Below are positions 1 through 20,899 of a DNA stretch of 64,000 nt, one piece after another; position 1 is the first letter of the stretch; every line of letters begins with the position of its first letter. The notes under the pieces are model-generated. The model had not been told where the DNA came from and ran no database searches. It saw nothing but the letters and a program-made list of their open reading frames with translations. Location of the stretch: the NCBI GenBank assembly GCA_015179025.1, contig WHUX01000131.1, forward strand, positions 1 to 64,000. The letters are read 5' to 3'. Source of the DNA: Terfezia claveryi (lineage: Eukaryota; Ascomycota; Pezizomycetes; Pezizales; Pezizaceae). A program made the position numbers and the translations under genes.

Positions 1-2550
1 GGGCTTACAACCTGGTACGGATTGCCGAGGAGGAGGAATGGAAAACTACCTTCCGAACTCATTATGGCCATTTCGAGTATAATGTAATACCTTTTGGCTT
101 AACCAACGCCCTGACCTCCTTTCAACACTTTATTAACGACACCCTATGAGACTTCCTAGATGTGTTCTATACGGCTTACTTATACGATATCCTAATCTAT
201 TTGGATACCCTAGCAGAGCACAAAATCCATGTCCAACAAGTCCTGGAAAAGCTGGAACAAGCAGGGTTGTACTTAAAGCCCGAGAAATGTGAATTCCACA
301 TCCAAGAAGTAAAGTATCTGGGCTTAATAATCACAATTGAAGGCATCAGAATAGATACTGCAAATGTCACGGCAATCCAGGAATGGGAAATCCCTACCAA
401 TCTCAAGGATGTACAGGCCTTCCTGGGTTTTGCTAACTTTTATCGCCAGTTCATTCTGGAATATTCGAAGATCGTGGCACCATTGACAGCATTAACCAAG
501 ACCAAGGGCATTAAAAGAGGCCATCACTTCCAGTGGAGTCCAGAAGCCCAGTCTGCCTTCGAGAAGCTCAAGGAAGCCTTCTGCTCAGCCCCGATCCTTG
601 TCCACTTTGACCCTGACAGTAAGTGTATCGTAGAAACGGACGTCTCCAATTATGTGTCTGCTAGAATCCTGTCCCAGTATATCAATAGTATTCTCCATCC
701 AGTGGCCTATTTCTCCAAAAAGTACTCCCCATCAGAGTGTAATTACAAAATCTATGATAAGGAGTTAATGGCCATTATACGAGCATTCGAGGAATGGAGG
801 CCCCACCTAGAATCAGCAAAGGGAATCATAGAGGTTCTCTCAGATCACAAGAACCTGGAGTACTTCACAACCACTAAATTACTGAACCGCTGACAGGCTA
901 GGTGGTCGGAATTCCTCTCTCGGTTTAACTTCAAGATCAGATACCGCCCCAGGAAGGCTGGTGGCAAGCCAGATACATTGACCAGGAGATCAGGAGACCT
1001 CCCTAAAGGAGGGGATGAAAGGCTGAAATACCAGAATCAGGTGGTACAGAAGCTGGAAAATCTCGATTTGGTAGCCAATGGTCTGGCTGATGCTGATACT
1101 ATTGCTGACGCCGGAGCTGGTCTCCAGCAATAGGTGCGACAAGCGTATGAGGAGGACCCCTTAGCTAAGGATATCATTACCGCATTAGAATCTAGACAAC
1201 ATCATCATCCCAAGATTTCCCTAGCTGAATGTACCACCCAAGATGGCCTCCTATACCACCTGGACCGTCTCTATGTACTGGATAGCAAACTGTGGTTACG
1301 GCTTATTAAAGAACACCACAATACCCTGGCCGCTAGTCACTCTGGAGTGGCTAAGATGTTAGAGCTCTTGAATAGGCAATACATGTGGATTAACCAATAG
1401 AAGGACGTGGAAAAGTACTTGCGGAATAGCCATATCTGCAAAAGGGCCAAACCTACCCGCCATGCCCCATATGGAACCCTGAAACCGCTAGAACTCCCGG
1501 ATTGGCCCTGGCTGCACCTAATAATGGACTTCGTGACGGGGTTACCGGAAGACTTGGGATTCAATGCTATCCTGATGGTAGTGGATCGGTTAACCAAGAT
1601 GAGGCATGTTATACCTTACCAGGAAACCTGCTCCACTCTAGAGCTAGCCAACCTCTACCTCAACCATGTATTCCGCTACCATGGTCTCCCCAAGTCAGTT
1701 GTTTCAGACCGTGGCCCTCAATTCATCTCGAACTTCTGGAAGACATTCTGCAAGCTTCTAGGAATCAACGTACACCTCTCTACGGCATATTACCCCCAAA
1801 CAGATAGTCAGTCCGAGCGAATAAATGCGATCATGGAGCAGTACCTGAGAGCATACGTCAATTACCAGCAAAACAACTAAGTTTTGCTACTGGCAACCTG
1901 TAAGTTCGCCACTAACAACCATTTCTCGAAGACTCTAAAAACCTCCCCGTTTCTAGCCAATTATAGCTGGCACCCTCGTTTCATGGACTCCCTGGCACCT
2001 CTGTATAAGGCTAAGGAGTATACCCCAGCTAAAGAGTTCGCCACAGAGATTTCTAAGTTGCACTCCACCCTGAGAGCCGAACTGGTATATGCTCAAGCCA
2101 GGCAAGTGGAATTTCCCAATAGATTACAGTTGCTAGGCCCTAGGTATCAGCCAGGAGATAAAGTGTGGCTCTTCAGCAGGCACTTCCAAATGGAACGGCC
2201 ATCTCACAAGCTCAATCATAAGTTCCTGGGTCCATTCGAGATGGTGGCCGCTGTGGGCACTTATGCCTGTCAATTGAGGTTCCCTAAGGACATCAAACGC
2301 CACCCGGTTGTACACATATCGGAAATTGAGCCAGCGGCTGACGATCCCCTCCTAGGGCAGAAACACCCCCCTCCCCTTCCTGTGGTGATTGAGGGTGAAG
2401 AGGAGTAAGAGATCGAAGAGGTATTGGACTCAAGGAAGAGGTACAGTCATCTATAATACAAGGTCAAGTGGTTAGAGGACGAGGAAACTACCTGGCAACC
2501 TGGGGAAGAATTGGAAAATGCACAGGACTTGGTCACCCTGTTCCACTAAT
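1..2550 (+). pseudogene. Ty3 chromovirus pol relic (RT, RNase H, integrase, chromodomain), 5' truncated by window edge
   Basis: Reading from the left edge, the translation shows the end of a reverse transcriptase, RNase H (acidic residues in TDVSN, DKEL and SDHK, about 630-860), an integrase and a chromodomain (VKW...TWQP, about 2460-2545). The RT box that should read YLDD reads YLYD (near 180), so a catalytic Asp is lost. The integrase zinc finger reads SHIC instead of CHxC, but its core keeps D (MDF), D (SDR) and E (SER). In-frame stops break the frame near 148, 891, 1131, 1398, 1878, 2406 and 2454. They sit where CGA, CAG, CAA or TGG is expected, so they look like C-to-T or G-to-A changes. 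The chromodomain places it in the chromovirus branch of Ty3 elements. The family call is secure, and the copy cannot be active. Confidence 0.93.
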
Positions 2551-3348: not shown

Positions 3349-3517
3349 ACTATAGAAGAAATAAACTTTGTAAGATTTTTATCTCAAAAGTTAAGATAAT
3401 AATAATCTATTACTTATAATATATCAAGAAGAGTGTGTTACGGTAATACCGATCTTAGAGGTGTGTCCAGATCTTTTGTGGCGAATCAAGCTTTGCTATG
3501 AAGTATTGGTTTGCTGA
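3349..3517 (-). pseudogene. Copia gag relic, distal fragment (left of the palindromic element)
   Basis: On the minus strand this stretch continues the gag fragment found at 18735-19006 once the palindromic element is removed. The translation shows a KIWTHL...RYYRNT pattern, like the 'WxxL...Y' part of Copia gag proteins, with a stop and a frameshift. It ends at the Ty3 LTR, so the Copia copy is also cut there. The CTGA at 3514-3517 is one half of the target duplication. Confidence 0.65.
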
Positions 3518-3640
3518 TGTGCTGTCCCATAGAGTGGTGCATCCCGCCCACGTATGGGACGCTAAAGTTGGGTGGGACGTCCCACCCAGCTTTGGTACTA
3601 GTGACCGTCCTATCCAGCGGTGGAATAATTTTCTAGCATA
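3518..3640 (+). repeat. Left terminal inverted repeat of the palindromic element
   Basis: It opens TGTGCTGTCCC and contains a nested hairpin made of GCTGGGTGGGACGTCCCACC-like segments. It pairs with the right end, with a small length difference where the right end has an extra CCCATACGCCTGTGGGACG-like segment. Confidence 0.85.
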
Positions 3641-3852
3641 ATTATTGCAAACCAGACAAAATTATTATATACAGAACTATTCTATCTATGTAAGAGAAAC
3701 AACCAATCGAAACAACCAAGTGAAACAACCAAGCAAAATAACCAAGCAAAAGAACCAAGCAAAATAACCAGACATATATACATAAGATACAAATAAATAA
3801 AACAAGCAGTAGTATGATCTAAAAAAAAAACAGATAAATAAAAGAACAGAAA

Positions 3853-6130
3853 TCAAGTTCTCTGGACTACTATACTATCTATTAAATTATCCCTACCAGC
3901 TGAATTAGAGACCGAAGCAGTAAGTCGGGAGGAACGACGAGTCATGGAGGTAGAGCCTGAAGGTGCAAGTGTAGAGCGTGAGACTACAGTACGAGTATTA
4001 CGCTCCTCAAGGGCAGCGAGGTTTAGACATGCCCCAGCCTGATCACCCAAGCGGTTCTTGCCCCAGTGGCAATAGTTAGTGCATCTAGGGCTAGATTTGA
4101 AGCACTTGCACTATTTGGTTTGACAGGTAGAGCTGTTGCTGCAAGTACAGTATAAAAGCACCTCTGTTATTTGAGAGGCTAGAGTAGTAGCGCGCCAGAG
4201 AGTGATTACTGATGAATTACTTGGAAGATCCAAAGTTGTAGCTGGAGAAAGCATAAGTAGAAGAAAATCAAGCTGACAATAGGGCTAAGGCACTTACCCA
4301 CAAGCTCAGGAACCCGGTTGAGTTCACCGGTTGGATATAATCGATCCAAGATACCATACTCTGTCTGTAGTTGATATCTACCAGAGTGTGGCTGGCCTAT
4401 AACTCAAGCATATAGTCTAGGATGGTCTAGAGTACCCTGGTCTTCTGTAGGAATGTGCAGGGAAACAACTGTATTGGGCTTAAAGGACTCAATAATAAAT
4501 CGTTTATTATAATGATTGGCCATTTGATCCCGAGTCTTTTAGGCAATGGACAGTATTGATTCCTCTGCTTCCGTAAGTAAAATAGTAGGAGGTATAGCAG
4601 CAGTAGCCTCTGAAGTCACTACAGCAGTAGCCTCTAAAGTCGCTATAGCAGTAGCCTCCAGTGTTGCTACAGCAGTAGCCTCTAGAGTCGCTATAGCAGT
4701 AGCTTCTGGAGTCACTGCAGTAGTCTCCAACAATACTGGATCAATTGAGAGTAAGCAGCTCTAGAGGGGGGTTGCTGTGCTTGGGAGTGTTGTGCTTAAG
4801 GGTATTATGCTCGAGAGTCCTATACTCGAAAGTGCTGTGCTCGGGAGTGCTGTGCTCGAGGGTGCTGTGCTTAAGGGTACTGTGCTCATGAGTTCTGTGC
4901 TTGGGGGTGCTATGCTCGGAGGTGCTATGCTCGAGGGTACTATGCTCGGGGGTGCTGTACTCAGGGGTGCTGTACTCACAGATGATACCTAGAAAAAATA
5001 TCAGTAAAATGTCTAGTATATACACATGGTATCAAATCCCAGTTCCTACTTGAAAAGCCTCATCGAAAACCTCATCCTCAATATCATCCAGCTGTGCATT
5101 AGGATCCACTATAACTCGGTCCTCCCATCGTGGCTTCCGGTTATAAAATATCTCATAGGGCATTTTGCCATCTAACGATGAGTGGCTTTGTCTGTTCATA
5201 CCAAGAGCAATATCTGGCAGTGCATCGCTCTAGTCCTGGCTATTATGGTCTGTAAGCCAACAATGTAACTTGGTCTTCATGACTCCATTTGCCTGTTCAA
5301 CCAGCCCCTGTATCTGTGGATGTCATGGCCTACCATTGATTATTTTGACCCCATATTTCCTCAATAAATCTAAGAGAATGCTCTTGAACTTAGCTCCATT
5401 ATCACACTACAGAATGTAAAGAACTCCAACAATCCCTATCCATTGAGCAACACAATTAGTAACTCCAGCTGCTGTTTTATCGAGAAGAGGATAAAGAAAG
5501 CTATATTTGGAAAAGTGGTCTTTAATATGTAAGATCCAATGGTTCCTATTATGAGTTGTAGGTCTCATATCAACTAGGTCGATCTGAACTCGCTCTAATG
5601 TATAATATGACTCAATAGGCTGTAAAGGAGCCCGGGAATTGAAGGCGACTCCGAATACATGTAGTGCAGTATTTTAGTAGCCAAAAAACCTCTTGTCTAG
5701 AGATTCCATAAAATTTCTCCTGAACAAGCTGGAAGGTTTTTTTGATCCCTAGATGATGACAATGGAGATGGCAGTCCAAAATTGATTGATATACTTCTTC
5801 TAGTCTAACAACTTGCCTATAATACTAGAATTAGCTCTTGAACCTATTGATAATGCTATAAAGATTTACCCTTGCGGATGTTTATCAACTGCCTTGTGCC
5901 ATAATTTCCCATCTACTAACTCATTATTGTCAAGTGCATCACCTCTGGAATTTGACCATTTCTGCCTCTCACGTTTATCTGTCATAGACTCAGGAGATTT
6001 AGTATTGGGATCTAGGGAGGTCAGAATGGATATATAATCATTATATTTGTTGCTGAGGAAATGAGTATGGTTGAGGTTTTCATCAGACTGCATCCAAGCC
6101 TAGAATGCTTCCTCTGTACCATCAGGAAAA
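3853..6130 (-). pseudogene. Left-arm copy of the integrase-type transposase (decayed)
   Basis: This is the mirror copy of the gene at 16140-18380. On the minus strand it runs from an N-terminal region (about 6130-5650) through the integrase core (about 5640-5060), a repetitive linker (about 5000-4540) and a Cys-rich CXC-like motif (4149-4069) to a basic tail (4050-3853). Stops interrupt every domain. The CXC motif, for example, has TAG where the right copy has TGG. The linker consists of 15-bp and 24-bp tandem repeats. Comparison with the right arm shows many C/T and G/A differences, as RIP would leave. It is inactive. Confidence 0.8.
4540..4995 (-). repeat. Coding minisatellites in the left transposase linker (24-bp and 15-bp units)
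   Basis: Two arrays lie side by side: about 4600-4720 repeats a 24-bp unit (EATA plus variable residues on the minus strand) and about 4790-4980 a 15-bp unit (EHSTP-like). The right arm has the same two arrays at about 17280-17460 and 17510-17640. Confidence 0.75.
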
Positions 6131-6439
6131 ATAGAGGTAGATATAACAGATAGGTAGAGGTAAGACAAACTGGGGATCTAAGGAAAGAATTTGTTAATAT
6201 CTAGACTTCTTATAAAGCTTTTCTTAGTAGAGGTAATACGTATGATTGGGGAATGCGCTGGATGCCCTAGCCAGCAATGCGCATAGTGGGAGAATGTACT
6301 AGACGCCCTAGCCAGCAGGGCGCATAGTTAGAGAATGCACTGGACGCCCTAGCCAGCATTATGCATAATTGGGGAATACGGAATGCGCTGAACGCACTCG
6401 CCTAATGAGGGAATAAGCTAGATGCCCTAGTAATACATG

Positions 6440-7446
6440 AATTCATATATATATGAAAACTCATGAATTTATATATATAGAGAGACTCGAACCGAAAACA
6501 CATGAATTCATATATATAGAGAGACTCTAAAACACATGAATTCATACATATAGAAGGACTTGAAAACACATGAATTCATGCATATAAAGAGACTCGAAAA
6601 GACATGAATTCATATATATATAGAGACTCGAAAACATACATATAGAGAGACCCGAAAACATACATATAGAGAGACCCGAAAAAACATGAATTCATATATA
6701 TAGAAAGACCCGAAAACACATGAATTCATACATATAGAGAGACCCGAAAACACATGAATTCATATATATAGAGGGACTCGAAAACACATGAATTCATACA
6801 TATAGAGAGACTCGAAAATACATGAATTCATACATATAGAGAGACTTGAAAACACATAAATTCATACATATAGAGAGACTCGAAAACATATATATAGAGA
6901 GACCTGAAAACACGTGAATTCATATATATAGAGAGAACCGAAAACAAATAAATTCATACATATAGAGAGACCAGAAAACATACATATAGAGAGACCCGAA
7001 AACACATGAATTCATATATATAGAAAGACCCGAAAACACATGAATTCATACATATAGAGAGACCCGAAAAAACATGAATTCATATATATAGAGAGACTCG
7101 AAAACACATGAATTCATACATATAGAGAGACTTGAAAACATATGAATTCATACATATAAAGAGACTCGAAAACACATGAATTCATACATATAGAGAGACT
7201 AGAAAACATATATATAGAGAGACCTGAAAACACGTGAATTCATATATATAGAGAGACCCGAAAACACATGAATTCATACATATAGAGAGACTCGAAAACA
7301 CATGAATTCATATATGTAGAGAGACTCGAAAACACATGAATTCATATATATAGAGAGACTCGAAAACATACATATAGAGAGACCTGAAAACATATGAATT
7401 TATATATATAGAGAGACCCGAAAACACATGAATTCATATATATAGA
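6440..7446. repeat. 34-bp minisatellite array, left arm
   Basis: About 30 units of a 34-bp repeat built from CGAAAACACATGAATTCAT followed by ACATATAGAGAGACT. Shorter units lack the ATGAATTCAT palindrome. The mirror array is at 14735-15810, and a short array forms the loop of the large palindrome. Confidence 0.95.
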
Positions 7447-7925
7447 TAAGATCATTGCCGGAGCCAAAATTGCAGTCTGTAGGGGGGGGCAAAACAAGTT
7501 ACCCCAGTCCACTATACTCCGAGCGCCATCACACTACTTCTTAGGTCACCCTCGTTGTAGACTTGTGGTTTGGTGGAGATATAGTGAACTGAAGCATTAA
7601 GGAATAGATACTCGACAACCCTGCTCCTTCGTCCTTCCAATAATATTAAGGCAATGAACTTCTTACCTCCACTGGGATTTGAACTTGGGCCCTCAATAAA
7701 TAGACATAACCGGAAAGTAAAGTACTTACCACTGCGCTATGCCTACTGTCAGTTTCATCAAACTGAATGACCCTACCCTCACATACCAAATCCTATACGA
7801 CAGATCTAATGGAGGGTGTTGGGTGCACTTATGTGTCACCATATGTTAGTTAACACATTGCGAGAATACATGTGCGCATACATGTGAAAAGGAGGATATC
7901 GAGTATATATAGCTCCTATGATAGC
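7447..7925. repeat. Unique block of the left arm between the two satellite arrays
   Basis: The block holds the tRNA-like sequence described separately and a G-run near 7486. It is mirrored closely at 14253-14730. No protein is recognisable in it. Confidence 0.7.
7666..7745 (-). other. tRNA-like sequence with pol III A and B boxes, left arm
   Basis: On the minus strand an A box (TAGCGCAGTGG, 7739-7729) is followed by a B box (AGTTCAAATCC, about 7685-7675) at a tRNA-like distance. The acceptor and anticodon stems do not pair properly, so this is not a working tRNA. It looks like the head of a tRNA-derived SINE caught in the element. The right-arm copy is better preserved. Confidence 0.55.
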
Positions 7926-7927
7926 TT

Positions 7928-8149
7928 GATCTGGAGGCAAGGCAATGTTGCTGGAGGCAAGGCAATATTGCTGGAGGCAAGGCAATACTGCCGGAGGCAA
8001 GGCAATGTTGCTGGAGGCAAGGCAATGTAGCTGGAGGTAAGGCAATACTGCCAGAGGGAAGGCAATGTTGCTGGAGGCAAGGCAATATTGCTGGAGGCAA
8101 GGCAATATTGCTGGAGGCAAAGCAATGTTGCCGGAAGCAAGATAATGTT
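7928..8149. repeat. 20-bp satellite, first part (left arm)
   Basis: Eleven or so units of GGAGGCAAGGCAATGTTGCT, cut off from the main array by the solo LTR at 8150. The units carry no stop in several frames of both strands, which creates long but meaningless open frames. Confidence 0.95.
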
Positions 8150-8826
8150 GTGTAATGGAGAACGTTATTTCATTGCTTATATAATTGATTATATACTTTT
8201 GTATTTCCTATATTACTACTATGTTATGTAACTAAGCCTCTCGGTTGAAGGACTAGCCTTCTACCACCTCCTATTGCTTTATAAGCATCCATAGCATGCG
8301 GAATCTGCCATGGGAAGTTCCATGGCACTTGCCATATGAAGACACCCTCATTATGGCCGCGTGACCTCTGTTTAAGGCATGTGACTCATTACTATCGCCA
8401 CATGACCATCATTTATGGCGTGTAACTCATTACTATGGCCACATGACCCCTTTTGTACAGCGCACCACCTTCTGGTGTGCCACCCTTTATTGTATTTATT
8501 TCCTTAGTCATCAGATCTCAGAGGAGTATAAATCGGCTGCTGGATTCCCTCTGGAATCCACAGAAAGACAAGAAGAAACCAAGCAAGCACTCAGAGCAAG
8601 CAAGCCTATATTCCGATCAGATCAAGATCATATAGCTTAGATAGCACAAATCATATAAGATAGATTACACCAGTTAATTACTGTTCCCTTTGGGAATGTC
8701 CCACATAGTAATCTCCCTACCCTTCTGAGGTCTTACCTCAGCAGAACCGAAATACACAAACGTCCGTGCCTACGGATATAGATTGTATAAACGGTACCGA
8801 ATGAATACTGTCTAGTACCATTCATT
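8150..8826 (+). mobile_element. Probable solo LTR (Copia-like) inserted in the 20-bp satellite
   Basis: A non-repetitive segment of about 675 bp interrupts the satellite. It starts TGTAATGG and ends near CCATTCA, so it has TG...CA borders with short inverted termini. It contains a TATA-like box (GAGTATAAATC, about 8521). A shared word (GATATAGATTGTATAAACGG, 8776-8795) recurs at 19622-19641 beside the Copia gag relic. No internal coding region is present, and no target duplication is visible, perhaps because of the repetitive target. The mirror arm lacks it, so it is younger than the palindrome. Confidence 0.6.
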
Positions 8827-8829
8827 ATA

Positions 8830-11212
8830 TATTGGCGGAGGCAAGGTAATGTTGCTGGAGGCAAGGTAATGTTGCTGCAGGCAAGGCAATACTACCGGAG
8901 GCAAGGCAAGGCAATGTTGCTGGAGGCAAGGCAATACTGCCGGAGGCATGGCAAGGCAATATTGCTGGAGGCAAGGCAATATTGCTGAAGGTAAGGCAAT
9001 GTTGCTGGAGGCAAGGCAATGTTGCCGGAGGCAAGGTAATGCTGCTGGAGGCAAGGCAATGTTGCTGGAGGCAAGGCAATACTGCCGGAGGGAAGGCAAT
9101 GTTGCAGGAGACAAGGCAATGTTGCTGGAGGCAAGGCAATACTGCTGGAGGTAAGGCAAGGTAATGTTGCTGGAGGCAAGGCAATATTGCTAGAAGCAAG
9201 GCAATGTTGCTGGAGGCAAGGCAATGTTACCGGAGGCAAGGTAATGTTGCTGGAAGCAAGGCAATATTTCTGGAGGCAAGGCAATGTTGCTGGAGGCAAG
9301 GCAAGGTAATGTTGCTGGAGGCAAGGCAATGTTGTTGGAGGCAAGGTAATGTAGCCGGAGGCAAGGTAATGTTGCTAGAGGCAAGGCAATGTTGCTGGAG
9401 GCAAGGCAATACTGCCAGAGGCAAGGCAAGGCAATGTTGCTGGAGGCAAGGCAATATTGCTGGAGGTAAGGCAATATTGCTGGAGGCAAGGCAATGTTGC
9501 CAGAGGCAAGGTAATGCTGCTAGAGGCAAGGCAATGTTGCTGGAGGTAAGGTAATGCTGCTGGAGGCAAGGCAATGTTGCTGGAGGCAAGGCAATACTGC
9601 CGGATGGAAGGCAATGTTGCTGGAGGCAAGGCAATATTGCTGGAGGCAAGGTAATATTGCTGGAGGCATGGCAATGTTGCTGGAGGCAAGGCAATATTGC
9701 TGGAAGCAAGGCAATATTGCTGGAGGCAAGGCAATGTTGCTAGAGGCAAGGTAATGTTGCCGAAGGCAAGGTAATGTTGCCAGAGGTAAGGTAATGTTGC
9801 TGGAGACAAGGCAATATTGCTGGAGGCAAGGCAATGTTGCTGGAGGCAAGGCAAGGTAATGTTGCTGGAGGCAAGGCAATGTTGTTGGAGACAAGGCAAT
9901 ATTGCCGGAGGCAAGGTAATGTTGCTGGAGGCAAGGCAATGTTGCTGGAGGCAAGGCAATACTGCCAGAGGCAAGACAATGTTGCTGGAGGCAAGGCAAT
10001 ATTGCTGGAGGCAAGGTAATATTGCTGGAGGCATGGCAATGTTGCTGGAGGCAAGGCAATATTGCTAGAAGCAAGGCAATATTGCTGGAGGCAAGGCAAT
10101 GTTGCTGGAGGCAAGGTAATGTTGCCGGAGGCAAGGTAATGTTGCCGGAGGTAAGGTAATATTGCTGGAGGCAAGGCAATATTGCTGTAGGCAAGGTAAT
10201 GTTGCTGGAGGCAAGGCAAGGTAATGTTGCTGGAGGTAAGGCAATGTTGTTGGAGGCAAGGCAATATTGCTGGAGGCAAGGTAATGTTGCTGGAGGCAAG
10301 GCAATGTTGCTGGAGGCAAGGCAATACTGCCGGAGGCAAGGCAAGGCAATGTTGCTGGAGGCAAGGCAATACTGCCAGAGGCAAGGCAAGGCAATATTGC
10401 TGGAGGCAAGGCAATATTGCTGGAGGTAAGGCAATGTTGCTGGAGGCAAGGCAATATTGCCAGAGGCAAGGTAATGCTGCTAAAGGCAAGGCAATGTTGC
10501 CGGAGGTAAGGTAATGCTGCTGGAGGCAAGGCAATGTTGCTGGAGGCAAGGCAATACTGCCGGAGGGAAGGCAATATTGCTGGAGGCAAGGCAATATTGC
10601 TGGAGGCAAGGCAATATTGCTGGAGGCAAGGCAATGTTGCTGGAGGCAAGGCAATATTGCTGGAAGCAAGGCAATATTGCTAGAGGCAAGGCAATGTTGC
10701 TGGAGGCAAGGTCATGTTGCCGGAGGTAAGGTAATGTTGCTAGAGACAAGGCAATATTGCTGGAGGCAAGGCAATACTGCTGGAGGCAAGGCAAGGTAAT
10801 GTTGCTGGAGGCAAGGCAATACTGCCGAAGGCAAGGCAAGGCAATGTTGCCGGAGGCAAGGTAATGTTGCTAGAGACAAGGCAATGTTGCTGGAGGCAAG
10901 GCAATACTGCCGGAGGCAAGGCAAGGCAATGTTGCTGGAGGCAAGGCAATACTGCCGAAGGCAAGGCAAGGCAATGTTGCTGTAGGTAAGGCAATACTGC
11001 CGGAGGCAAGGCAATGTTGCTGGAGACAAGACAATATTGCCGGAGGCAAGGCAATGTTGTTGGAGGCAAGGCAATGTTGCTGGAGGCAAGGCAATACTAC
11101 TAGAGGCAAGGCAATACTGCTGGAGGCAAGGCAGTATTGCTGGAGGCAAGGCAATATTGCCGGAGGTAAGGCAGTATTGCTGTAGGCAAGGCAATATTGC
11201 TAGAGGCAAGGC
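8830..11212. repeat. 20-bp satellite, main array (about 115-120 units)
   Basis: Continuous tandem copies of GGAGGCAAGGCAATGTTGCT with frequent GGCAATATTGCC variants, the latter a perfect 12-bp palindrome. Occasional 25-bp units carry an extra GGCAA. Because 20 is not a multiple of 3, translations cycle through all frames with a 20-residue period on both strands, giving apparent ORFs of up to 309 codons. I do not regard these as genes. The matching array in the right arm (14092-14252) is only about 160 bp. Confidence 0.95.
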
Positions 11213-11689
11213 TTCCTTCCTTTCCCCCCCTTGTTCATGCTGCCCTTCCCTCCCCTGCTGGCTAGTGCTGCCCTCCTCCTCTTCTCCATTGGTTTATGCC
11301 CCCACTCTTTCCTTTGCTCATTCATGCTGCCCTTCCCTCCCCCACTGGCTAGTGCTGCCCTCCCCCCCTTCCCCACTGGTTCATTCCTTTCCCTGCTAGT
11401 ATATACTGCCCTTCCCTTGCTTGCTGGCTAGGGCTGCCCCCCTCTCCTCCCTACCTGGTTCGTGCTGCCCCCCCCCACTGATTCATGCTGCCTCCCCCAC
11501 CCCACTGGTTCGTACAGCCCCTCTCTACTGATTTATGCTGCCCCAACCATAAAACTCCCATTTTTCAGAATTCAGGGTAAATACAATGGCGAGTTCAGGG
11601 TAAATGCCACAGTGGGTAATATCAAAAAATAAAGTGGCCATATGGCTAGCTGATGGCATGTCAAGCTGGCAATGGAGTAATATTGGATA

Positions 11690-11895
11690 AATTGCAGGCT
11701 GAATAGCGAGCTGGTAGGGAATTGCAGGCTAAATAAACAGCTAGTGAAGGGGTGAATTGCAGGCTGAATAAACAGCTGGCGAAGGGATGAATTACAGGCT
11801 GAATAAATAGTTGGCGAAGAAGTTAATTGCAGGCTAAATAAACAGCTGGCGAAGGGTTGAATTGCAGGTTGAATAAACAGCTGGCAAAGGGGTGC
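11690..11895. repeat. 34-bp tandem repeat, inner left arm
   Basis: Five to six copies of a unit containing GAATTGCAGGCTGAATAAAC and AGCTGGCGAAGGG. Mirrored at about 13400-13620. Confidence 0.85.
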
Positions 11896-12011
11896 TGATT
11901 CTGAACATCCAGCTGGGAAAGGGGTGAATATTAGGGATATTGCATAACCTCAGTTAACTTGTGGTCTCTCTGCTTGCTGTTAGCTAATCCTGTACACTAT
12001 GACTAAGAACA

Positions 12012-12260
12012 TTATAGAGGCAACCAGCAGATGAAGGATCTGTCCAACTCCACATCCCTTTGCTTGCTCATTCCCTCAGTGAACTGTTGGCAGTAGCTGC
12101 TAGAAATTGCTGCTAGTGTGTGTATGATGCAAGTGCACTTGCAGGAACCACAACCCTCGAGCCCATTTCTTACCAATATAGCACAGCGTAATCTTATTAT
12201 TGCGTTGAGAGGAATGACAACAATTCTCGCAAAGGAGACTTCTGAATTGTGTTGTGCCAT
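12012..12260 (-). CDS. Possible small ORF (82 codons) of the palindromic element
   Basis: An 82-codon frame points outward in the inner left arm. It reads through several paired cysteines (CGSCKCTC). The mirror copy at 13045 keeps the same reading for about 57 residues and then has TGA where this copy has CAA. I recognise no family. It may be a small accessory protein of the element or chance. Confidence 0.2.
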   Translation of the reverse strand: MAQHNSEVSFARIVVIPLNAIIRLRCAILVRNGLEGCGSCKCTCIIHTLAAISSSYCQQFTEGMSKQRDVELDRSFICWLPL

Positions 12261-12523
12261 ATTAGGAAGACACGGGAAATTTGGTATATACTAGTACACC
12301 CAACTGAGTATGGTCAACCCCGCTTAGCAGACCTTGCAGCTGCCGGCTCGGCTATACTAGCTCAGAGTGGCAATAAGTTCTAGGGTTGTTGTCTTGCCGA
12401 GGGTGCGCTATGCCTGTGCAGGCAATAGTGGTATCTGGCAATACTTCTGGGTCTTTATGTAGTTGTGAGGAAGGTAACAACTGTAATATGTATGGAACTC
12501 ATGCATTTGGGGTCCCTCTATAT

Positions 12524-12781
12524 CTATGAATTTGTTTGTTTTCGGGGTCATACATATAGAGAGACCCGAAAACACATGAATTCATACAGATAGAGAGACC
12601 CGAAAATACATGAATTCATACATATAGAGAGACTCGAAAACACATGAATTCATACATATAGATAGACTCGAAAACACATGAATTCATACATATACAGAGA
12701 CTCGAAAACATATATATAGAGAGACCAGAAAACATATGAATTCATATATATAGAGAGACCCGAAAACACATGAATTCATAT
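12524..12781. repeat. Loop of the palindrome: short 34-bp minisatellite array
   Basis: About seven units of the same 34-bp minisatellite in one orientation, preceded by one partial unit in the opposite orientation (about 12520-12550). The axis of the inner palindrome falls here, near 12652. Confidence 0.85.
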
Positions 12782-14093
12782 ATATTGAGGAACCCCAAAT
12801 GCATGAGTTCTATACATATTACAGTTGTTACCTTCCTCACAACTACGTAAAGACCCAGATGTGTTGCTAGATACTACTATTGCCTACACAGGCATAGCAC
12901 ACCCTCGTCAAAAGAACAACCCTAGAACTTATTGCTACTCTAAGCTAGCATAGCTGAGCTGGCAGCTGCAAGGTCTGCTAAGCGGGGTTGGCCATACCCA
13001 GTTGGATGTACTAGTATACACCAAATTTCCCATGTCTTCCTAATATGACACAGCACAATTCAGAAGTCTCCTTTGCGAGAATTGTTGTCATTCCTCTCAA
13101 CGCAATAATTAGATCACGCTGTGCCATATTGGTAAGAAATGGGCTCGAGGGTTGTGCTTCCTGCAAGTGCACTTGCATCATGCACATACTAGTAGCTATT
13201 TCTAGCAGCTACTGCTGACAGTTCGCTGAGGGAATGAGCAAGCAAAGGGACGTGGAGTTGGACAGATCCTTCATCTGCTGGTTGCCTCTATAATGTTCTT
13301 AGTCATAGTGTACAGGATTAGCTAACAGTAAGCAGAGAGACCACAAGTTAACTGAGGTTATGCAATATCCCTAATATTCACCCCTTTCCTAGCTGGGTGT
13401 TCAGAATTAGCACCCTTCGCCAGCTGTTTATTCAACCTGCAATTCAACCCTTCGCCAGCTGTTTATTTAGTCTGCAATTCAGCTCTTCGCCAACTATTTA
13501 TTCAGCCTGTAATTCACCTCTTCGCCAGCTGTTTATTCAGCCTGCAATTCACCCTTTCGCCAGCTGTTTATTCAGCCTGCAATTCACCACCAGCTCGCTA
13601 TTCAGCCTGCAATTTATCCAATATTAGCTCATTGCCAGCTTGACATGCCACTAGCTAGCCATATGGCCACTTTATTTTTTGATATCACCCACTGTGGCAT
13701 TTACCCTAAACTCGCCATCGTATTTACCCTGAATTCTGAAAACGGGAGTTTGGTCGTTGGGGCAGCATAAATCAGTGGGGAGGGGCCGCATGAACCAGTG
13801 GGGTGGGGGGGTAGCATGAATTAGTGGGGGGGGGCAGCATGAACCAGGTGGGGAGGAGATGGGGGCAGTGCTAGCCAATGGGCGAGGGAAGGGCAGCATG
13901 TACTAGCGGGGGAAGGAATGAACCAGTGGGGAAGGGAGGGAGGGCAGCACTAGCCAGCGGGGGAGGGAAGGGCAGCATGAACAAGCAAGGGAAGGAGGGG
14001 GGTATAAACCAGTGGAGAAGAGGAGGAGGGCAGCATTAGCCAGCGGGGGAGGGAAGGGCAGCATGAACGAGGGGGGGAAAGGAAGGAAGCCTT
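12782..14093 (-). repeat. Inner right arm of the palindrome
   Basis: Mirror image of 11213-12523: a unique block, the 34-bp tandem repeat (about 13400-13620), and a G/A-rich block (13750-14090) that is the complement of the C/T-rich block on the left. Confidence 0.85.
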
Positions 14094-14252
14094 GCCTCCA
14101 GCAATATTGCCTTGCCTCAGCTACAGCAATACTACCTTACCTCCGGCAATATTGCCTTCCTCCAGCAATACTGCCTTACCTCTGGCAGTATTGCTTTGCC
14201 TCCAGCAGTATTGCCTTGCCTCCAGCAACATTGCCTTGCCTCCAGATCAAGC
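14092..14252. repeat. 20-bp satellite, right arm (short)
   Basis: Eight or so units, the complement of the left-arm satellite. This probably approximates the length before expansion on the left. Confidence 0.9.
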
Positions 14253-14431
14253 TATCATAGGAGGTATATATACTCGATATCCTCCTTTTCACATGTATGC
14301 GCACATGTATTCTCATAATGTGTCAACTAACACATGGTGACATATGATGGTGCCCAATACCCTCCGTTAGGTCTGTCACATAGGATTTGGTATGTGAGGC
14401 TAGGGTCATTCAGTTTGATGAAACTGACAAT

Positions 14432-14512
14432 AGGCATAGCGCAGTGGTAAGTACTTTACTTTACGGTTATGTCTATTTATTGAGGGCCTGAGTTCGAATC
14501 CCAGTGGAAGCA
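14432..14512 (+). other. tRNA-like sequence with pol III A and B boxes, right arm
   Basis: The A box TAGCGCAGTGG (14437-14447) and B box AGTTCGAATCC (14491-14501) match the eukaryotic consensus closely. Spacing is right for a tRNA, and the T-arm pairs at four of five positions. The acceptor stem does not pair, so a mature tRNA is not expected. This reads as a tRNA-derived SINE head or an internal pol III promoter carried by the element. Confidence 0.55.
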
Positions 14513-14734
14513 AGAAGTTAATTACCTTAATATCATTGGAAGAACGAGAGAGCAGGGTTGTCGGGTATCCATTCTTTAATACTCCAGTTCACTATATCTC
14601 TACCAAACCACAAGTCTACAATGAGGGCGACCTAAGAAGTAGTATGATGGCGCTCGGAGTATGGTAGACTGGAGTAACTCGTTTTGCCCCCCCCTACAAA
14701 CTACAATTTTGCCTCCGGCAATGATCTTATCTAT

Positions 14735-15810
14735 ATATATGAATTCATGTGTTTTCGGGTCTCTCTATAGTATATATGAATTCATGTGATTTCGGGTCTC
14801 TCTATATATATGAATTCATGTGTTTTCGGGTCTCTCTATATGTATATTTTCGAGTCTCTCTATATGTATGAATTCATGTGTTTTCGAGTCTCTCTATATA
14901 TATGAATTCATGTGTTTTCAAGTCTCTCTATATATATGAATTCATATGTTTTCGAGTCTCTCTATATATATGAATTCATGTGTTTTCGGGTCTCTCTATA
15001 TGTATGTTTTCGGATGTCTCTATATATATGAATTCATGTGTTTTCGGGTCTCTCTATATATATGAATTCATTTGTTTTCGGTTCTCTCTATATGTATGTT
15101 TTCGAGTCTCTGTATATGTATGAATTCATGTGTTTTCGGGTCTCTCTATATATATGAATTCATGTGTTTTCGGGTCTCTCTATATGTATGTTTTCGGGTC
15201 TCTCTATATATATGAATTCACAGGTTTTCGGGTCTTTCTATATATATGAATTCATATGTTTTCGGTTCTCTCTATATGTATGTTTTCAAGTTTCTATATA
15301 TGTATGAATTCATGTGTTTTCGGGTCTCTCTATATATATGAATTCATGTGTTTTCGGGTCTCTCTATATATATGTTTTTGAGTCTCTGTATATGTATGAA
15401 TTCATGTGTTTTCGAGTCTATCTATATGTATAAATTCATGTGTTTTCGAGTCTCTCTATATGTATGAATTCATGTGTTTTCGGGTCTCTCTATCTGTATG
15501 AATTCATGTGTTTTCGGGTCTCTCTATATATATGAATTCAAGTGTTTTCGAGTCTCTCAATATATATGAATTCATGTGTTTTTGGGTCTCTCTATATATA
15601 TGAATTCATATGTTTTCAGGTCTCTCTATATGTATGAATTCATGTGTTTTCGAGTCTCTCTATATGTATGAATTCATGTGTTTTCGAGACTCTCTATATG
15701 TATGAATTCATGTGTTTTCGAGTCTCTCTATATATATAAATTTATGTGTTTTCGGTTCGAGTCTCTCTATATGTATGAATTCATGAGTTTTCGTATATAT
15801 ATGAATTCAT
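14735..15810. repeat. 34-bp minisatellite array, right arm
   Basis: Complement of the array at 6440-7446: about 30 units containing ATGAATTCATGTGTTTTCG and TCTCTCTATATGT, with short variants lacking the palindrome. Confidence 0.95.
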
Positions 15811-16139
15811 GTGTTGCTAGGGCCTTCAGCTCATTCCCTCATTAGGTGAGGGCGTCCAGCACATTCCGCATTCCCCAATTATACATAATGCTGGCTAGGG
15901 TGTCCAGCGCATTCTCCAACTATACGTATTGCTGGCTAGGGCCTCCAGCGCATTCTCCAACTATGCACATTGCTGGCTAGTACATCCAGCGTATTCCCCA
16001 ATCATATGTATTGCCTCTACTAAGAAAAGCTTTATAAGAAGTCTAGATATTGACAACTTCTTTCCTTAGATCCCCAGTCTGTCTTACCCCTACCTACTTG
16101 TTATGTCTACCTCTATTTTTCCTGATGGTACCGAGGAAG

Positions 16140-18380
16140 CATTCTAGGCTTGGATGCAGTCCAATGAAAACCTCAACCATGCTCGTTTCCCCAGCAACAA
16201 ATATGATGATCCTATATCTATTCTGACCTCCCTAGATCCCAATACTAAAGCTCTTGAGTCTATGACAGATAAACGTAAGAGGCAGAAATGGTCAAATTCC
16301 AGAGGTGATGCACTTGACAATAATGAGTTAGTAGATGGGAAATTATAGCACAAGGCAGTTGATAAACATCCGCAGGGGTAAATCTTTATAGTATTATCAA
16401 TGGGTTCAAGAGCTAATTCTAGTATTATAGGCAAGTTGTTAGACTAGAAGAAGTATATCAATCAATTTTGGACTGCTATCTCCGTTGTCATCATCTAGGG
16501 ATCAAAAAAACCTTTTAGCTTGTTCAGGAGAAATTTTATGGAATCTTTAGGCAAGAGGTTTTTTGGCTACTAAAATACTGCACTATATGTATTCGGAGTC
16601 GGCCTTCGAATTCCCGGGCTCCTTTACAGCCTATTGAGTCCCATTATACATTAGAGCGAGTTCAGATCGACCTATTTGATATGAGAGCCACACCTCATAA
16701 TAGGAACCATTGGATCTTACATATTAAAGACCACTTTTCCAAATATAGCTTTCTTTATCCTCTTCTTGATAAAACAGCAGCTGGAGTTACTAAGTATGTT
16801 GCTCAATGGATAGGGATTGTTGGAGTTCCTTACATTCTGCAGTGTGATAATGGAGCTGAGTTCAAGAGCATTCTCTTAGATTTATTGAGGAAATATAGGG
16901 TCAAAATAATCAATGGTAGGCCACGACATCTACAGACACAAGGGCTGGTTGAACAGGCAAATGGAGTCATGAAGACCAAGTTACGTTGTTGGCTTGCAGA
17001 CCATGATAGCCAGGGCTGGAGCGATGCACTGCCAGATATTGCTCTTAGTATGAACAGATAAAGCCACTCATCGTTAGGTGGTAAAATGCCCTATAGATAT
17101 TTTATAACTGGAAGCCTCGATAGGAGGACCAAGTTACAGTGGATCCTAATGCACAGCTGGATATATTAAGGATGAGGTTTTCGATGAGGCTTTTCAAGTA
17201 GGAACCGGAATTTGATACCATATGTATATACTAGAGATTTTACTGATATTTTTTCTAGGTATTATCTGTGAGTATAGCACCCTCGAGTACAGTACCCCCG
17301 AGCATAGTACCCTCCAGCACAGCACCTCCGAGCACAGCACTCCCAAGCATAGAACCCATGAGTATAGTACCCCTAAGCACAGCACTCCCGAGCACAGCAC
17401 TTCCGAGCACAGGACTCTCGAGCATAATACCCTTAAGCACAATAATCCCGAGTATAGCAACCCCCCTCCAGAGCTGCTTACTCTCAATTGATCCAGCGTT
17501 GTTGGAGACTACTGCAGTGACTCCAGAAGCTACTGCTATAGCGACTCTAGAGGCTACTGCTGTAACAACTCTGGAGGCTACTGCTATAGTGACTCTGGAG
17601 GCTACTGCTGTAGTGACTTCAGAGGCTACTACTGCTATACCTCCTACTATTCTACTCACGGAAGCAGAGGAATCAATACTATCCATTACCCAAAAGACTC
17701 GGGATCAAATGGCCAATCGTCATAATAAACGATTTATTATTGAGTCCTTTGAGCCCAATACAGTTGTTTCCCTGCGCATTCCTATAGAAGACCAGGGTAC
17801 TCTAGACCATCCTAGACTATATGCTCGAGTTATAGGCTAGCCACACTCTAGTAGATATTAACTACAGACAGAGTATGGTATCTTGGATCAATTATATCCA
17901 ACTGGTGAACTCAACCGGGTTCCTGAGCTTGTAGGTAAGTGCCTTATCCCTATTGTCAGCTTGATTTTCTTCTACTTATGCTTTCTCTAGCTACAACTTT
18001 GGATCTCATAAGTAATTCATTAGTAATCACTCTCCAGTGCGCTGCTACTCTAGCCTCTTAAATAACGAAGGTGCTTCTATACTGTACTTGCAGCAACAGC
18101 TCTACCTGTCAAACCAAATGGTGCAAGTGCTTCAAATCTGGCTCTAGATGCACTAACTATTGCCACTGGGGTAAGGACCGCTTGGGTGATTAGGCTGGGG
18201 CATGTCTAAACCTCGCTGCCCTTAAGGAGCATAATACTCGCACTGTAGTCTCACGCTCTACACTTGCACCTTCAGGCTCTACCTCCATGACTCGTCGTTC
18301 CTCCCTACTTACTGCTTCGGTCTCTAATTCAGCTGGTGGGGATAATTTACTAGATATTATAGTAGTTCGGAGAACTTGAT
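16140..18380 (+). pseudogene. Right-arm copy of the integrase-type transposase with CXC-like tail
   Basis: Order along the gene: an N-terminal region of unknown fold (about 16140-16600), an integrase core (16645-17060), a repetitive linker (17250-17690), a conserved segment (17690-17930), a likely intron near 17935-17990, a Cys motif of pattern CxCx5Cx4CxCx6Cx3C (18083-18163) and a basic tail ending TAG/TGA near 18380. The core keeps D (VQIDLFD), D (QCDNG) and E (LVEQAN), the DDE triad of Ty3-type integrases. Stops at about 16346, 16379, 16443 and 17059, usually where TGG or CAA is expected, break it. It is better preserved than the left copy. Ginger-type transposons and the host genes derived from them use this integrase fold; the CXC-like tail would bind zinc and perhaps DNA. 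The family assignment is by motif only. Confidence 0.8.
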
Positions 18381-18599
18381 TTCTGTTCTTTTATTTATCT
18401 GTTTTTTTTTTAGTTCATACTACTGCTTGTTTTATTTATTTGTATCTTATGTATATATGTCTGGTTATTTTGCTTGGTTATTTTGCTTGGTTATTTTGCT
18501 TGGTTGTTTCACTTGGTTGTTTCGGTTGGTTGTTTCTCTTACATAGATAGAATAGTTCTGTATGCAATAATTTTGTCCGGCTTGCAATAATTATGCTAG

Positions 18600-18734
18600 A
18601 AAATTATTCCACCGCTGGATGGCACGGTCACTAGTGCCAAAGCTGGGTGGGACGTCCCACCCAGCTTTAGCGTCCCACAGGCGTATGGGACGTCCCACAC
18701 GTGGGCGGGACGCACCGCTCTATGGGACAGAACA
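18600..18734 (-). repeat. Right terminal inverted repeat of the palindromic element
   Basis: Read on the minus strand it opens TGTTCTGTCCC. It contains the same GGGACGTCCC hairpin blocks as the left end. CTGA at 18735-18738 repeats the four bases preceding the left end. Confidence 0.85.
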
Positions 18735-19006
18735 CTGATAATCTGAATAAGCATTAGGATAGCTTGATTTTGCACGGCTGCTAAGACTTGACGTTCTTCG
18801 GCTGTCGCATCGGTAGAAGGTTAGAGTCCGTCAACCACTAGTTCCATCCCTCTCATGACCATTTTAATGGTGTCGGCCCAGTCCTCATAATTATTTTTAC
18901 CCGTAAGGGTTTCGATATTGTCTAGCTTAACTGAGGCTGGCTTGTAATCTTTAGGGAGGGTAAACCAGGAGGATGTGCAAGCCGAGTCCGACCTGGGGGT
19001 GGACAT
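18735..19006 (-). pseudogene. Copia gag relic, N-terminal part
   Basis: On the minus strand an ATG at 19006 opens a frame with KLDNIETLTGKNNYEDWADT, typical of the start of Copia gag proteins. It passes a stop at 18821 (where CAA or a similar codon would be expected) and continues in frame (EERQVLAAVQNQA) up to the CTGA target site of the palindromic element. The continuation is at 3517-3349. The copy is a relic, cut by two later insertions. Confidence 0.75.
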
Positions 19007-19812: not shown

Positions 19813-20681
19813 TTACATCGTCAATGTCCTGCGACCCAGCCCGCCGGTCAACACGCCTTTCAAGCGACGATTCTCTTTGATGGTGCATGCCCTAGTATGT
19901 TCCACGTGCCCCATCAATTGACTGAAGAGCTTAAACTGCCTCCCACATCCTGGACAGTTGTAGATGTCCTCTGTGCGCTTCGGTGCATGGATGTTGGTGA
20001 TATGCCCATTAAGTCTCCCCAGCGTACTATATTCCTGGTCGCAGAAATAGCACTCGTACGCCCAACCATTCCATGCGCGTGAGGTCGCCCAGATATCCGG
20101 TTCTGGTTGCCACTGTCCATAGCCAATGAGCTTGCGGTTTGTGAAGACACCACGTGTGTCGATCTCGTGAACTCGTTCGTCGACCTTGCGGCGGTTCATC
20201 CCACTTACACAGGTTCCGGACTCGAGGTGAAGTGTGACCGCAGTGACGGTCGGAAAGCTACGGGTGCAGCCGGGGCATTGCATCGACTGTCCATGTGCTT
20301 TCGACCTCGTATGCTAGGTAGTGAGAGCATTAGTATTACACATAGGCCTGTTTAGGTGCTAGGTGTTACCTGTCTCAAATTGTTCTCATTCTCAAAGTAT
20401 TGGTCATGTAACTTGCACCAATGATGAACCTCTTCCTTATGAGCCTCCATAGTTTCCAATTGGCTGCACCCCCAGCTGCAGGGCTCGCAAACATAGCTCC
20501 AGATCTTCCTAAGGTGTTTGATGGAATTTACCTTATGCTGCTCTAATCCGTAAGCATTAGAGAAGGACTGTCTGCAGGGTTCACAGTTGTAGACTGGACG
20601 GTGAGCCGCAGAGTAGTCGAGATGTTGCTGGAGAGCATTTTCGTTGACAAAACAACGATCGCAGTCATCGCACCAAGCCAT
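19813..20681 (-). CDS. C2H2 zinc-finger protein (270 aa, two exons)
   Basis: Exon 1 is 20681-20370 and exon 2 is 20313-19813. The 56-bp intron has GTAACA...CTAG borders and is phase 0, joining NNLRQ to HTRSKAH, which completes a zinc finger. The protein has about six C2H2-type fingers: WCDDC...H...H near the N-terminus, YNCEPC, a partly degenerate WCKLH finger, MQCPGC..HLESGTC, YECYFC and YNCPGC, the last ending in H...C. This finger order with the 'LESGTC' finger is common in an abundant family of fungal C2H2 proteins of unknown role. The start at MAWCDDC was chosen because the frame upstream has no finger or other recognisable domain. It probably binds nucleic acid. No regulatory partner is evident, and it stands alone at the border of the repeat block. 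Confidence 0.8.
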
Positions 20682-20899
20682 GTTGAATCTCGTCTCCAAA
20701 GTCTGTGAAGAGGAGTGTAATAGAGCTTGAAAGGCTGTATGTTGAGCACAATGAGATATATAACAGGCTCCTTGCAGGTTCGGCGGAAGGCAGGACCTTA
20801 AACAGCAGAATTCAATCGTACTTCTTTTCTTGCTACTATATATTATTTGGTATACCCCAGGAAGCTTCCTCAATCTTTTGCAATGGAGTGTTTATCCGA

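Follow-up and report, generated by a model that had tools for sequence, protein, structure and literature searches.

Can a palindrome of some 15 kb, with a gene copy in each arm, be the unit in which a DNA transposon moves? The question is raised by the first 64,000 bases of Terfezia claveryi contig WHUX01000131.1 (contig C37; these bases are referred to as the window), where an element of this form is flanked on either side by CTGA. In chromosomes, long palindromes are generally regarded as unstable. In the element, two inverted arms, each with an outer terminus and an outward-reading transposase-type gene, meet at a short asymmetric spacer, and in part of the copies a 4-bp target duplication was made at insertion. 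We consider it highly probable that this is a DNA transposon that moves with the whole palindrome as its unit. The original prediction had offered two possibilities, a true foldback element, mobile in palindromic form, and a dimer of head-to-head elements caught at a single insertion. The first is borne out by inverted arms in 12 of 12 end pairs fetched from the genome and by spacer-adjacent arm differences that are common to independent insertions, from which it follows that the palindrome was copied whole. The second fails, as no inner terminus was found in 7 of 7 elements.

The element, its empty site and its other copies

The element body occupies 3518-18734 (15,217 bp) and is bounded on both sides by CTGA (3514-3517 and 18735-18738). 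The left terminus, CTGA followed by TGTGCTGTCCC, starts at 3518, and the terminus read on the complement, TCAG followed by TGTTCTGTCCC, starts at 18734. Two inverted-repeat blocks pair 3555-7424 with 18677-14847 (91.3% over 3886 columns) and 11061-12546 with 14244-12759 (92.0% over 1492 columns). The inverted-repeat share of the element is 94.9% (at E<=1e-10), whereas three equal-sized stretches of the window gave 0.000, 0.000 and 0.017, and 10 kb of contig C776 gave 0.000. The predicted 15.2-kb palindromic element with a 4-bp duplication is thus correct, including its ends. Its parts are as follows.

3514..3517, no strand: left copy of the CTGA target-site duplication; the empty site on C368 has CTGA once
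18735..18738, no strand: right copy of the CTGA target-site duplication
3518..12546, plus strand: left palindrome arm, 9.0 kb, of which about 2.9 kb has no right-arm counterpart
12759..18734, minus strand: right arm of the palindrome, 6.0 kb
12547..12758, plus strand: asymmetric central spacer, a 212-bp piece of 34-bp array, homologous and oriented in C37, C774, C134 and C414
3518..3643, plus strand: left terminal block, beginning TGTGCTGTCCC; end type common to the shorter lineage
18609..18734, minus strand: right terminal block, beginning TGTTCTGTCCC; 126 bp, about 95% identity to shorter-lineage ends
6455..7446, plus strand: 34-bp tandem array of the left arm; the unit holds the palindrome ATGAATTCAT, 19 perfect copies
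14730..15793, minus strand: right-arm 34-bp tandem array with 23 perfect copies of ATGAATTCAT
8837..11212, plus strand: left-arm 20-bp tandem array, expanded; the right arm has its counterpart at 14089-14245
8153..8836, plus strand: nested repeat resembling a solo long terminal repeat (LTR), in the 20-bp array of the left arm; boundaries approximate

The left arm is about 2.9 kb the longer because of the expanded 20-bp array and the nested solo-LTR-like repeat. The 601 bases of this repeat that were searched match at least 39 other places at 97-98%; among the matches listed, one lies inside the left arm of a cousin element on C390 (121174-121774). In the autonomous lineage the spacer is rich in ATGAATTCAT, a perfect palindrome, with 6 copies in 277 bp.

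With regard to the insertion site, contig C368 carries a paralogous empty site that joins both flanks with exactly one CTGA. The left flank matches 128723-128813 through CTGA and the right flank matches 128810-129058 from CTGA, the two matches overlapping by exactly these four bases. The left-flank match comprises the last 86 of 250 bases, and the remainder of that flank matches other repeats. The host had been labelled a Copia gag; this label is unconfirmed, an 82-residue stop-free piece of the right flank showing no match to a Pfam family.

Other copies were sought by their ends in the assembly (72.6 Mb, 794 contigs). A 20-base terminal pattern with at most 2 mismatches found 54 ends and a 31-base pattern with at most 3 mismatches found 52, the controls (reversed, for the 20-base pattern) finding 0 in both cases. 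Among the 54 ends, 26 form 13 pairs that face inward at distances of 4.6-15.2 kb. Another 15, read inward, meet a contig end within about 6.3 kb, and for 3 more the centre of the copy was located (C134, C414 and C656). Twelve of the 13 pairs were fetched whole or in part, the second C556 pair being left out and only the outer 1.65 kb on each side of C84 being read. All twelve have inverted arms, so the search returned palindromes and not single-arm copies only. Single-arm relatives may exist among the solitary ends, ten in number, and the diverged integrase loci (C168, C175, C73 and others). The inverted-repeat coverage is 0.88-1.00 in 9 of 11 measured copies, and C774 (15,060 bp, coverage 1.00) provides another autonomous copy of full length.

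A shorter lineage comprises C43, C95, C556, C182, C200, C183, C97 and C257. It has the last 126 bp in common with the window element and elsewhere only short repeat matches; a match to the integrase gene was not found in the copies compared. Six of its copies have one spacer, 318-336 bp long and 90-100% identical to that of C43. The C390 cousin has its own palindrome centre, with arms 96.5% identical over 367 bp, lying between integrase copies at 109.6-110.1 kb (minus strand) and 126.9-127.4 kb (plus strand). A possible cousin palindrome was noted at C5 49984-51888, where two inverted matches to the C390 arms lie about 1.1 kb apart. Two copies of equal length occur on C556 (363282-368183 and 412825-417726), and an end at position 2974 of C500 has a 281-bp flank identical to the C556 flank; these reflect either a segmental duplication or an alternative haplotype.

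An exact 4-bp duplication is present in 5 of the 12 pairs (C37 CTGA, C43 GCTA, C182 GTAT, C556 CCTC and C84 AACA), and the chance of at least 5 exact duplications in 12 is about 7e-10. In addition, half copies on C205 and C322 bear complementary GCCA, and their joined flanks give a 107-residue frame. Excluding the half copy's own, 19 of 29 genome matches to this frame start at residue 1 and cross the joint at residue 14-15, and we take C205 and C322 to be the split halves of a single insertion whose two ends are inverted. Only this pairing was kept, because genome paralogues cross the joint. Pairing of half copies by complementary 4-mers alone was not used (6 cross pairs among 50 ends versus 4.8 expected), and C246 with C390b was rejected as a split insertion, since the two bear complementary GGGA but the joined frame is unconvincing. 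The joined C205/C322 frame gave a weak Pfam match to DUF7708 (E=0.0056, 17.0 bits, cut-off 25). A multicopy, host-like gene family with this weak resemblance is clustered on C18, C89, C11, C77 and C205, one member being interrupted by the C205/C322 insertion.

Joint inheritance of the two arms

If the palindrome is copied whole, differences between its arms should recur in independent insertions. Copies were oriented by the spacer, the two arms were labelled S and O, and an inner block of 1348 columns was compared. In C37, C774 and C134, 7 columns split the S arms from the O arms, compared with 0 in the three other labellings; when C414 was added, the same 7 columns were recovered, with 0 in all seven other labellings. 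None of the 7 is more than about 200 columns from the spacer, and 5 further S/O columns in the spacer side used for orientation were left out of the four-copy count. The shorter copies C43, C95 and C556 likewise show 7 S/O columns versus 0, 0 and 0, and between C182 and C200 like arms are 93.3-93.5% identical, unlike arms 86.2-87.5%. C43 and C95, whose flanks do not match, have 29 S/O columns of 2136 in common, with 0 and 0 for the alternatives; both arms were therefore inherited together.

At greater distances from the spacer, the two arms of one copy resemble each other more, the pattern expected from gene conversion. Between C37 and C774, the first 200 bp hold 7 S/O, 1 within-copy and 2 control columns, whereas the sequence beyond holds 11, 36 and 9, respectively. 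C88 compared with C37 gives 28 within-copy columns and 1 and 1 otherwise; the arms of C774 are too alike to tell when compared with C67 and C246 (1, 1 and 2). One arm of C656, read from the alignment, carries the O state in the 4 columns closest to the spacer and the S state in the 3 more distant ones, a mosaic that looks like a conversion tract. The same locus (C656 90.5-99.6 kb) has a right arm of the most recent subfamily and a left integrase copy at 85% with one TGA and three TAG, and is possibly a chimeric copy. The private changes of C37 and C134 are mainly C-to-T, at 0.12-0.13 for CpA, 0.12-0.21 for CpG and 0.01-0.04 for CpT and CpC. This bias points to mutation like repeat-induced point mutation, or to methylation damage, as the probable driver of decay after insertion.

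Several results weigh against the whole palindrome as the unit of transposition. Ten of the 54 ends are solitary. The inverted repeat covers only 0.61 of C88, a deletion derivative, and 0.56 of C257, which contains inserted DNA. Seven of the 12 pairs (C774, C88, C95, C97, C183, C200 and C257) have no duplication; ectopic exchange is our guess for these, and mis-assembly may be the alternative. The most recent loci compared (C2, C94, C96, C205, C246, C322, C390b, the right arm of C656, and C681) are 99.4-99.9% identical over about 3 kb, and 8 of these 9 end at a contig end inside the arm, without an assembled centre. In the shorter lineage, no column splits all six copies under any labelling, and C43, C95 and C556 have almost no S/O columns in common with C182 and C200. 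C182, C200 and C183 give 4 columns versus 2, 0 and 0, one C183 arm being poorly aligned, and the whole arms of C182 and C200 give 20 S/O, 17 within-copy and 15 control columns. The inner-block counts for C37 and C134 are 19, 15 and 11. We read the non-uniform signal in the shorter lineage as conversion since the split together with alignment noise.

The integrase gene and rival explanations

The original prediction placed a gene copy in each arm. A copy is indeed present in each; the integrase core is open in the right arm only.

5191..5728, minus strand: left-arm integrase core, broken, with 1 TGA and 2 TAG, in two frames
16519..17061, plus strand: right-arm integrase core, open; 180-residue frame, rve 29.5 bits, below the 32.6 cut-off
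17259..17840, plus strand: Ser/Pro/Thr-rich open frame downstream of the core; corresponds to the L033 frame of 276 residues

The integrase is found in both arms of C37, C774 and C134, and 13 genome matches have no internal stops (at least 179 of 180 residues, at least 79% identity). The recent copy L033 has, from centre to end on the same strand, frames of 103, 264, 276 and 146 residues, which we infer to be joined by splicing. Pfam scans covered the window integrase frame and these four frames. The 264-residue frame matches H2C2 (PF17921, 27.7 bits) and rve (PF00665, 37.1 bits), both above cut-off; the 276-residue frame is Ser/Pro-rich at first, and the 146-residue frame has a Cys-rich motif. 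Neither GPY/GPF by eye in the L033 frames nor OTU/Ulp1 by Pfam in the four frames was seen, the gene model being incomplete. D83, D142 and E177 are invariant in 12 aligned integrase sequences, and the best match of solved structure is PFV integrase (E=1.4e-13). There are 240 related proteins at E<=1e-5; among the 120 listed, the names include Metarhizium, Pseudogymnoascus, Lasallia and Metschnikowia, and P0034 (a 'SCAN domain-containing protein 3' of Metarhizium) has, by eye, a similar Cys-rich tail.

These findings bear on the possibility that a Foldback-type element is moved by another enzyme and that the integrase in its arms is a captured passenger. The tandem arrays within the arms and the arm-only copies do resemble Galileo and Tetris, as far as excerpts of the literature describe them, and the shorter lineage is mobile although it has no recognised integrase. 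Nevertheless, we think a passenger integrase unlikely: the gene is open in the most recent copies, its DDE triad is invariant, and a 4-bp duplication suits an integrase-type enzyme.

Assembly or library artefacts, that is, mis-joined arms or reads turned back on themselves, would be compatible with the breaks inside the arm at 8 of the 9 most recent loci and with the non-matching flanking 4-mers in 7 of 12 pairs. However, the arms of assembled copies differ by several percent, the flanks are unlike on the two sides with matching duplications in 5 of 12 pairs, the C37 insertion has an empty site at which the flanks overlap by 4 bp, and four contigs share one asymmetric centre. An artefactual origin is accordingly very improbable.

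We give an equally low probability to the view that the palindrome is not inherited and that each transposition restores it from a single arm, as fold-back copying might do. Such rebuilding could explain why the outer blocks share derived states within a copy (22 versus 6 and 5 for C37 and C774; 28 versus 1 and 1 for C88). In contrast, the S/O columns next to the spacer are common to four autonomous copies, and for C43 and C95, with their unrelated flanks, the 29 common S/O columns and none of the alternatives rule out rebuilding at each move. Two ordinary transposons lying head to head, trapped at one locus or sometimes mobilised by their outer ends as a macrotransposon, would provide a gene copy in each arm, and bacterial composite transposons are so laid out (excerpts of PMC9587614), but this is hardly credible, since one centre with the same arm differences recurs in four independent autonomous copies and the terminal 40 bp was not found inside any of 7 elements at E<0.1, which rules out a dimer of complete elements.

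Mechanism and relation to known transposons

Transposition of the whole palindrome could proceed as follows. From its domains and the duplications, the H2C2 and DDE integrase made by the arms would pair two like outer ends and join the element to a 4-bp staggered cut. As no inner terminus was found, one arm by itself would be immobile, and nothing smaller than the inverted dimer would be able to move. At its birth, a normal element may have lost one end and the remaining half may have been duplicated in inverted orientation, within the 34-bp array in the autonomous lineage; an inverted duplication starting in this ATGAATTCAT-rich array is a plausible origin of the palindrome, offered as speculation. 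Gene conversion from arm to arm would keep the arms, and hence the gene copies, alike until a copy decays. The shorter lineage, with the same ends and no recognised integrase, is presumably moved by the same enzyme. The spacers of the shorter lineage and of the C390 cousin show no match to one another, and the similarity of the C390 spacer region to the window element is confined to the arms; a repeated origin or a replacement of the centre is suggested by this mismatch. The fuller proposal has about an even chance of being right: that a half-element with one terminus is mobile only as an inverted dimer, an obligate inherited palindrome whose function is kept by arm-to-arm conversion between its transposase genes, and that this architecture originated, or received a new centre, on more than one occasion.

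The element had been likened to Ginger-type transposons. The H2C2 and DDE domains and the 4-bp duplications fit this label; the termini, the target and the length of the terminal inverted repeats (TIRs) do not. According to excerpts of PMC2836005, Ginger2/Tdd elements are 2.7-6.7 kb long, with TIRs of 45-297 bp, TGTNR ends, an RTATAY target and a duplication of 4 bp (5 bp in TDD-4/5). Our element shares with these, as excerpted, the H2C2 and DDE integrase-like transposase, the TGT...ACA outer bases and the 4-bp duplication, and differs in that the arms of the window element are 6-9 kb long and gene-bearing. Among 50 ends of the palindrome family, 46 begin with TGTTC and one each with TGTGC, TATTC, TATGC and TGTTA. 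The TGTNR pattern given in these excerpts is thus fitted by 1 of 50 ends (TGTTA), and the TATA of their RTATAY target occurs in 1 of 50 flanking 4-mers (PMC2836005). The CCGG or CCGT/ACGG target duplication of Ginger1 occurs in 0 of 50. A weak target preference was observed outside the duplication, with T at -6 in 25 of 50 ends and a purine at -5 in 39 of 50.

With regard to foldback elements, excerpts of PMC3573991 and PMC4079207 describe TIRs of up to about 1.25 kb in Galileo and 1.7 kb in Tetris, state that Galileo copies with the longest TIRs never hold the transposase frame and that Tetris lacks coding capacity, and report chimeric Galileo copies with non-matching duplications (PMC3573991). 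Judged by these descriptions, our family resembles them in its long inverted arms, its internal tandem repeats (here 34-bp and 20-bp) and its arm-only non-autonomous copies, whereas its arms hold a gene and form nearly the whole element, and the enzyme family and duplication length differ. KolobokP composite-like transposons are also eukaryotic DNA transposons with long terminal repeats, which, unlike here, are direct and have the transposase between them (excerpts of PMC9587614). In contrast to a composite transposon, the flanking copies are not complete two-ended elements, an inner terminus being found in 0 of 7. Sex-chromosome palindromes also have gene-bearing inverted arms and a unique spacer and are homogenised by conversion as here, but they are not mobile elements. 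We name the element a palindromic integrase-type transposon and assign it to neither Ginger2/Tdd nor Foldback; searches of open-licence PMC papers, aimed at palindromic or gene-bearing foldback transposons and at Ginger or related genes, found no equivalent.

Since the arms still carry a transposase-type gene, the family may help to show how Foldback elements originate. It multiplies as palindromes of 5-15 kb, and is a natural system for studying how genomes tolerate and copy palindromes, and for asking if mirror-image copies of a transposase gene mend each other by conversion. It is also a warning that assemblers break such elements, as at the most recent loci (8 of 9 ending inside an arm at a contig end).

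To the left of the insertion is an LTR retrotransposon, whose reverse transcriptase/RNase H and integrase frames are at window positions 150-893 and 1401-1880, with a further frame beside them at 1881-2408. Just to the right, open frames with C2H2 zinc fingers occupy 19813-20313 and 20352-20891 on the minus strand.

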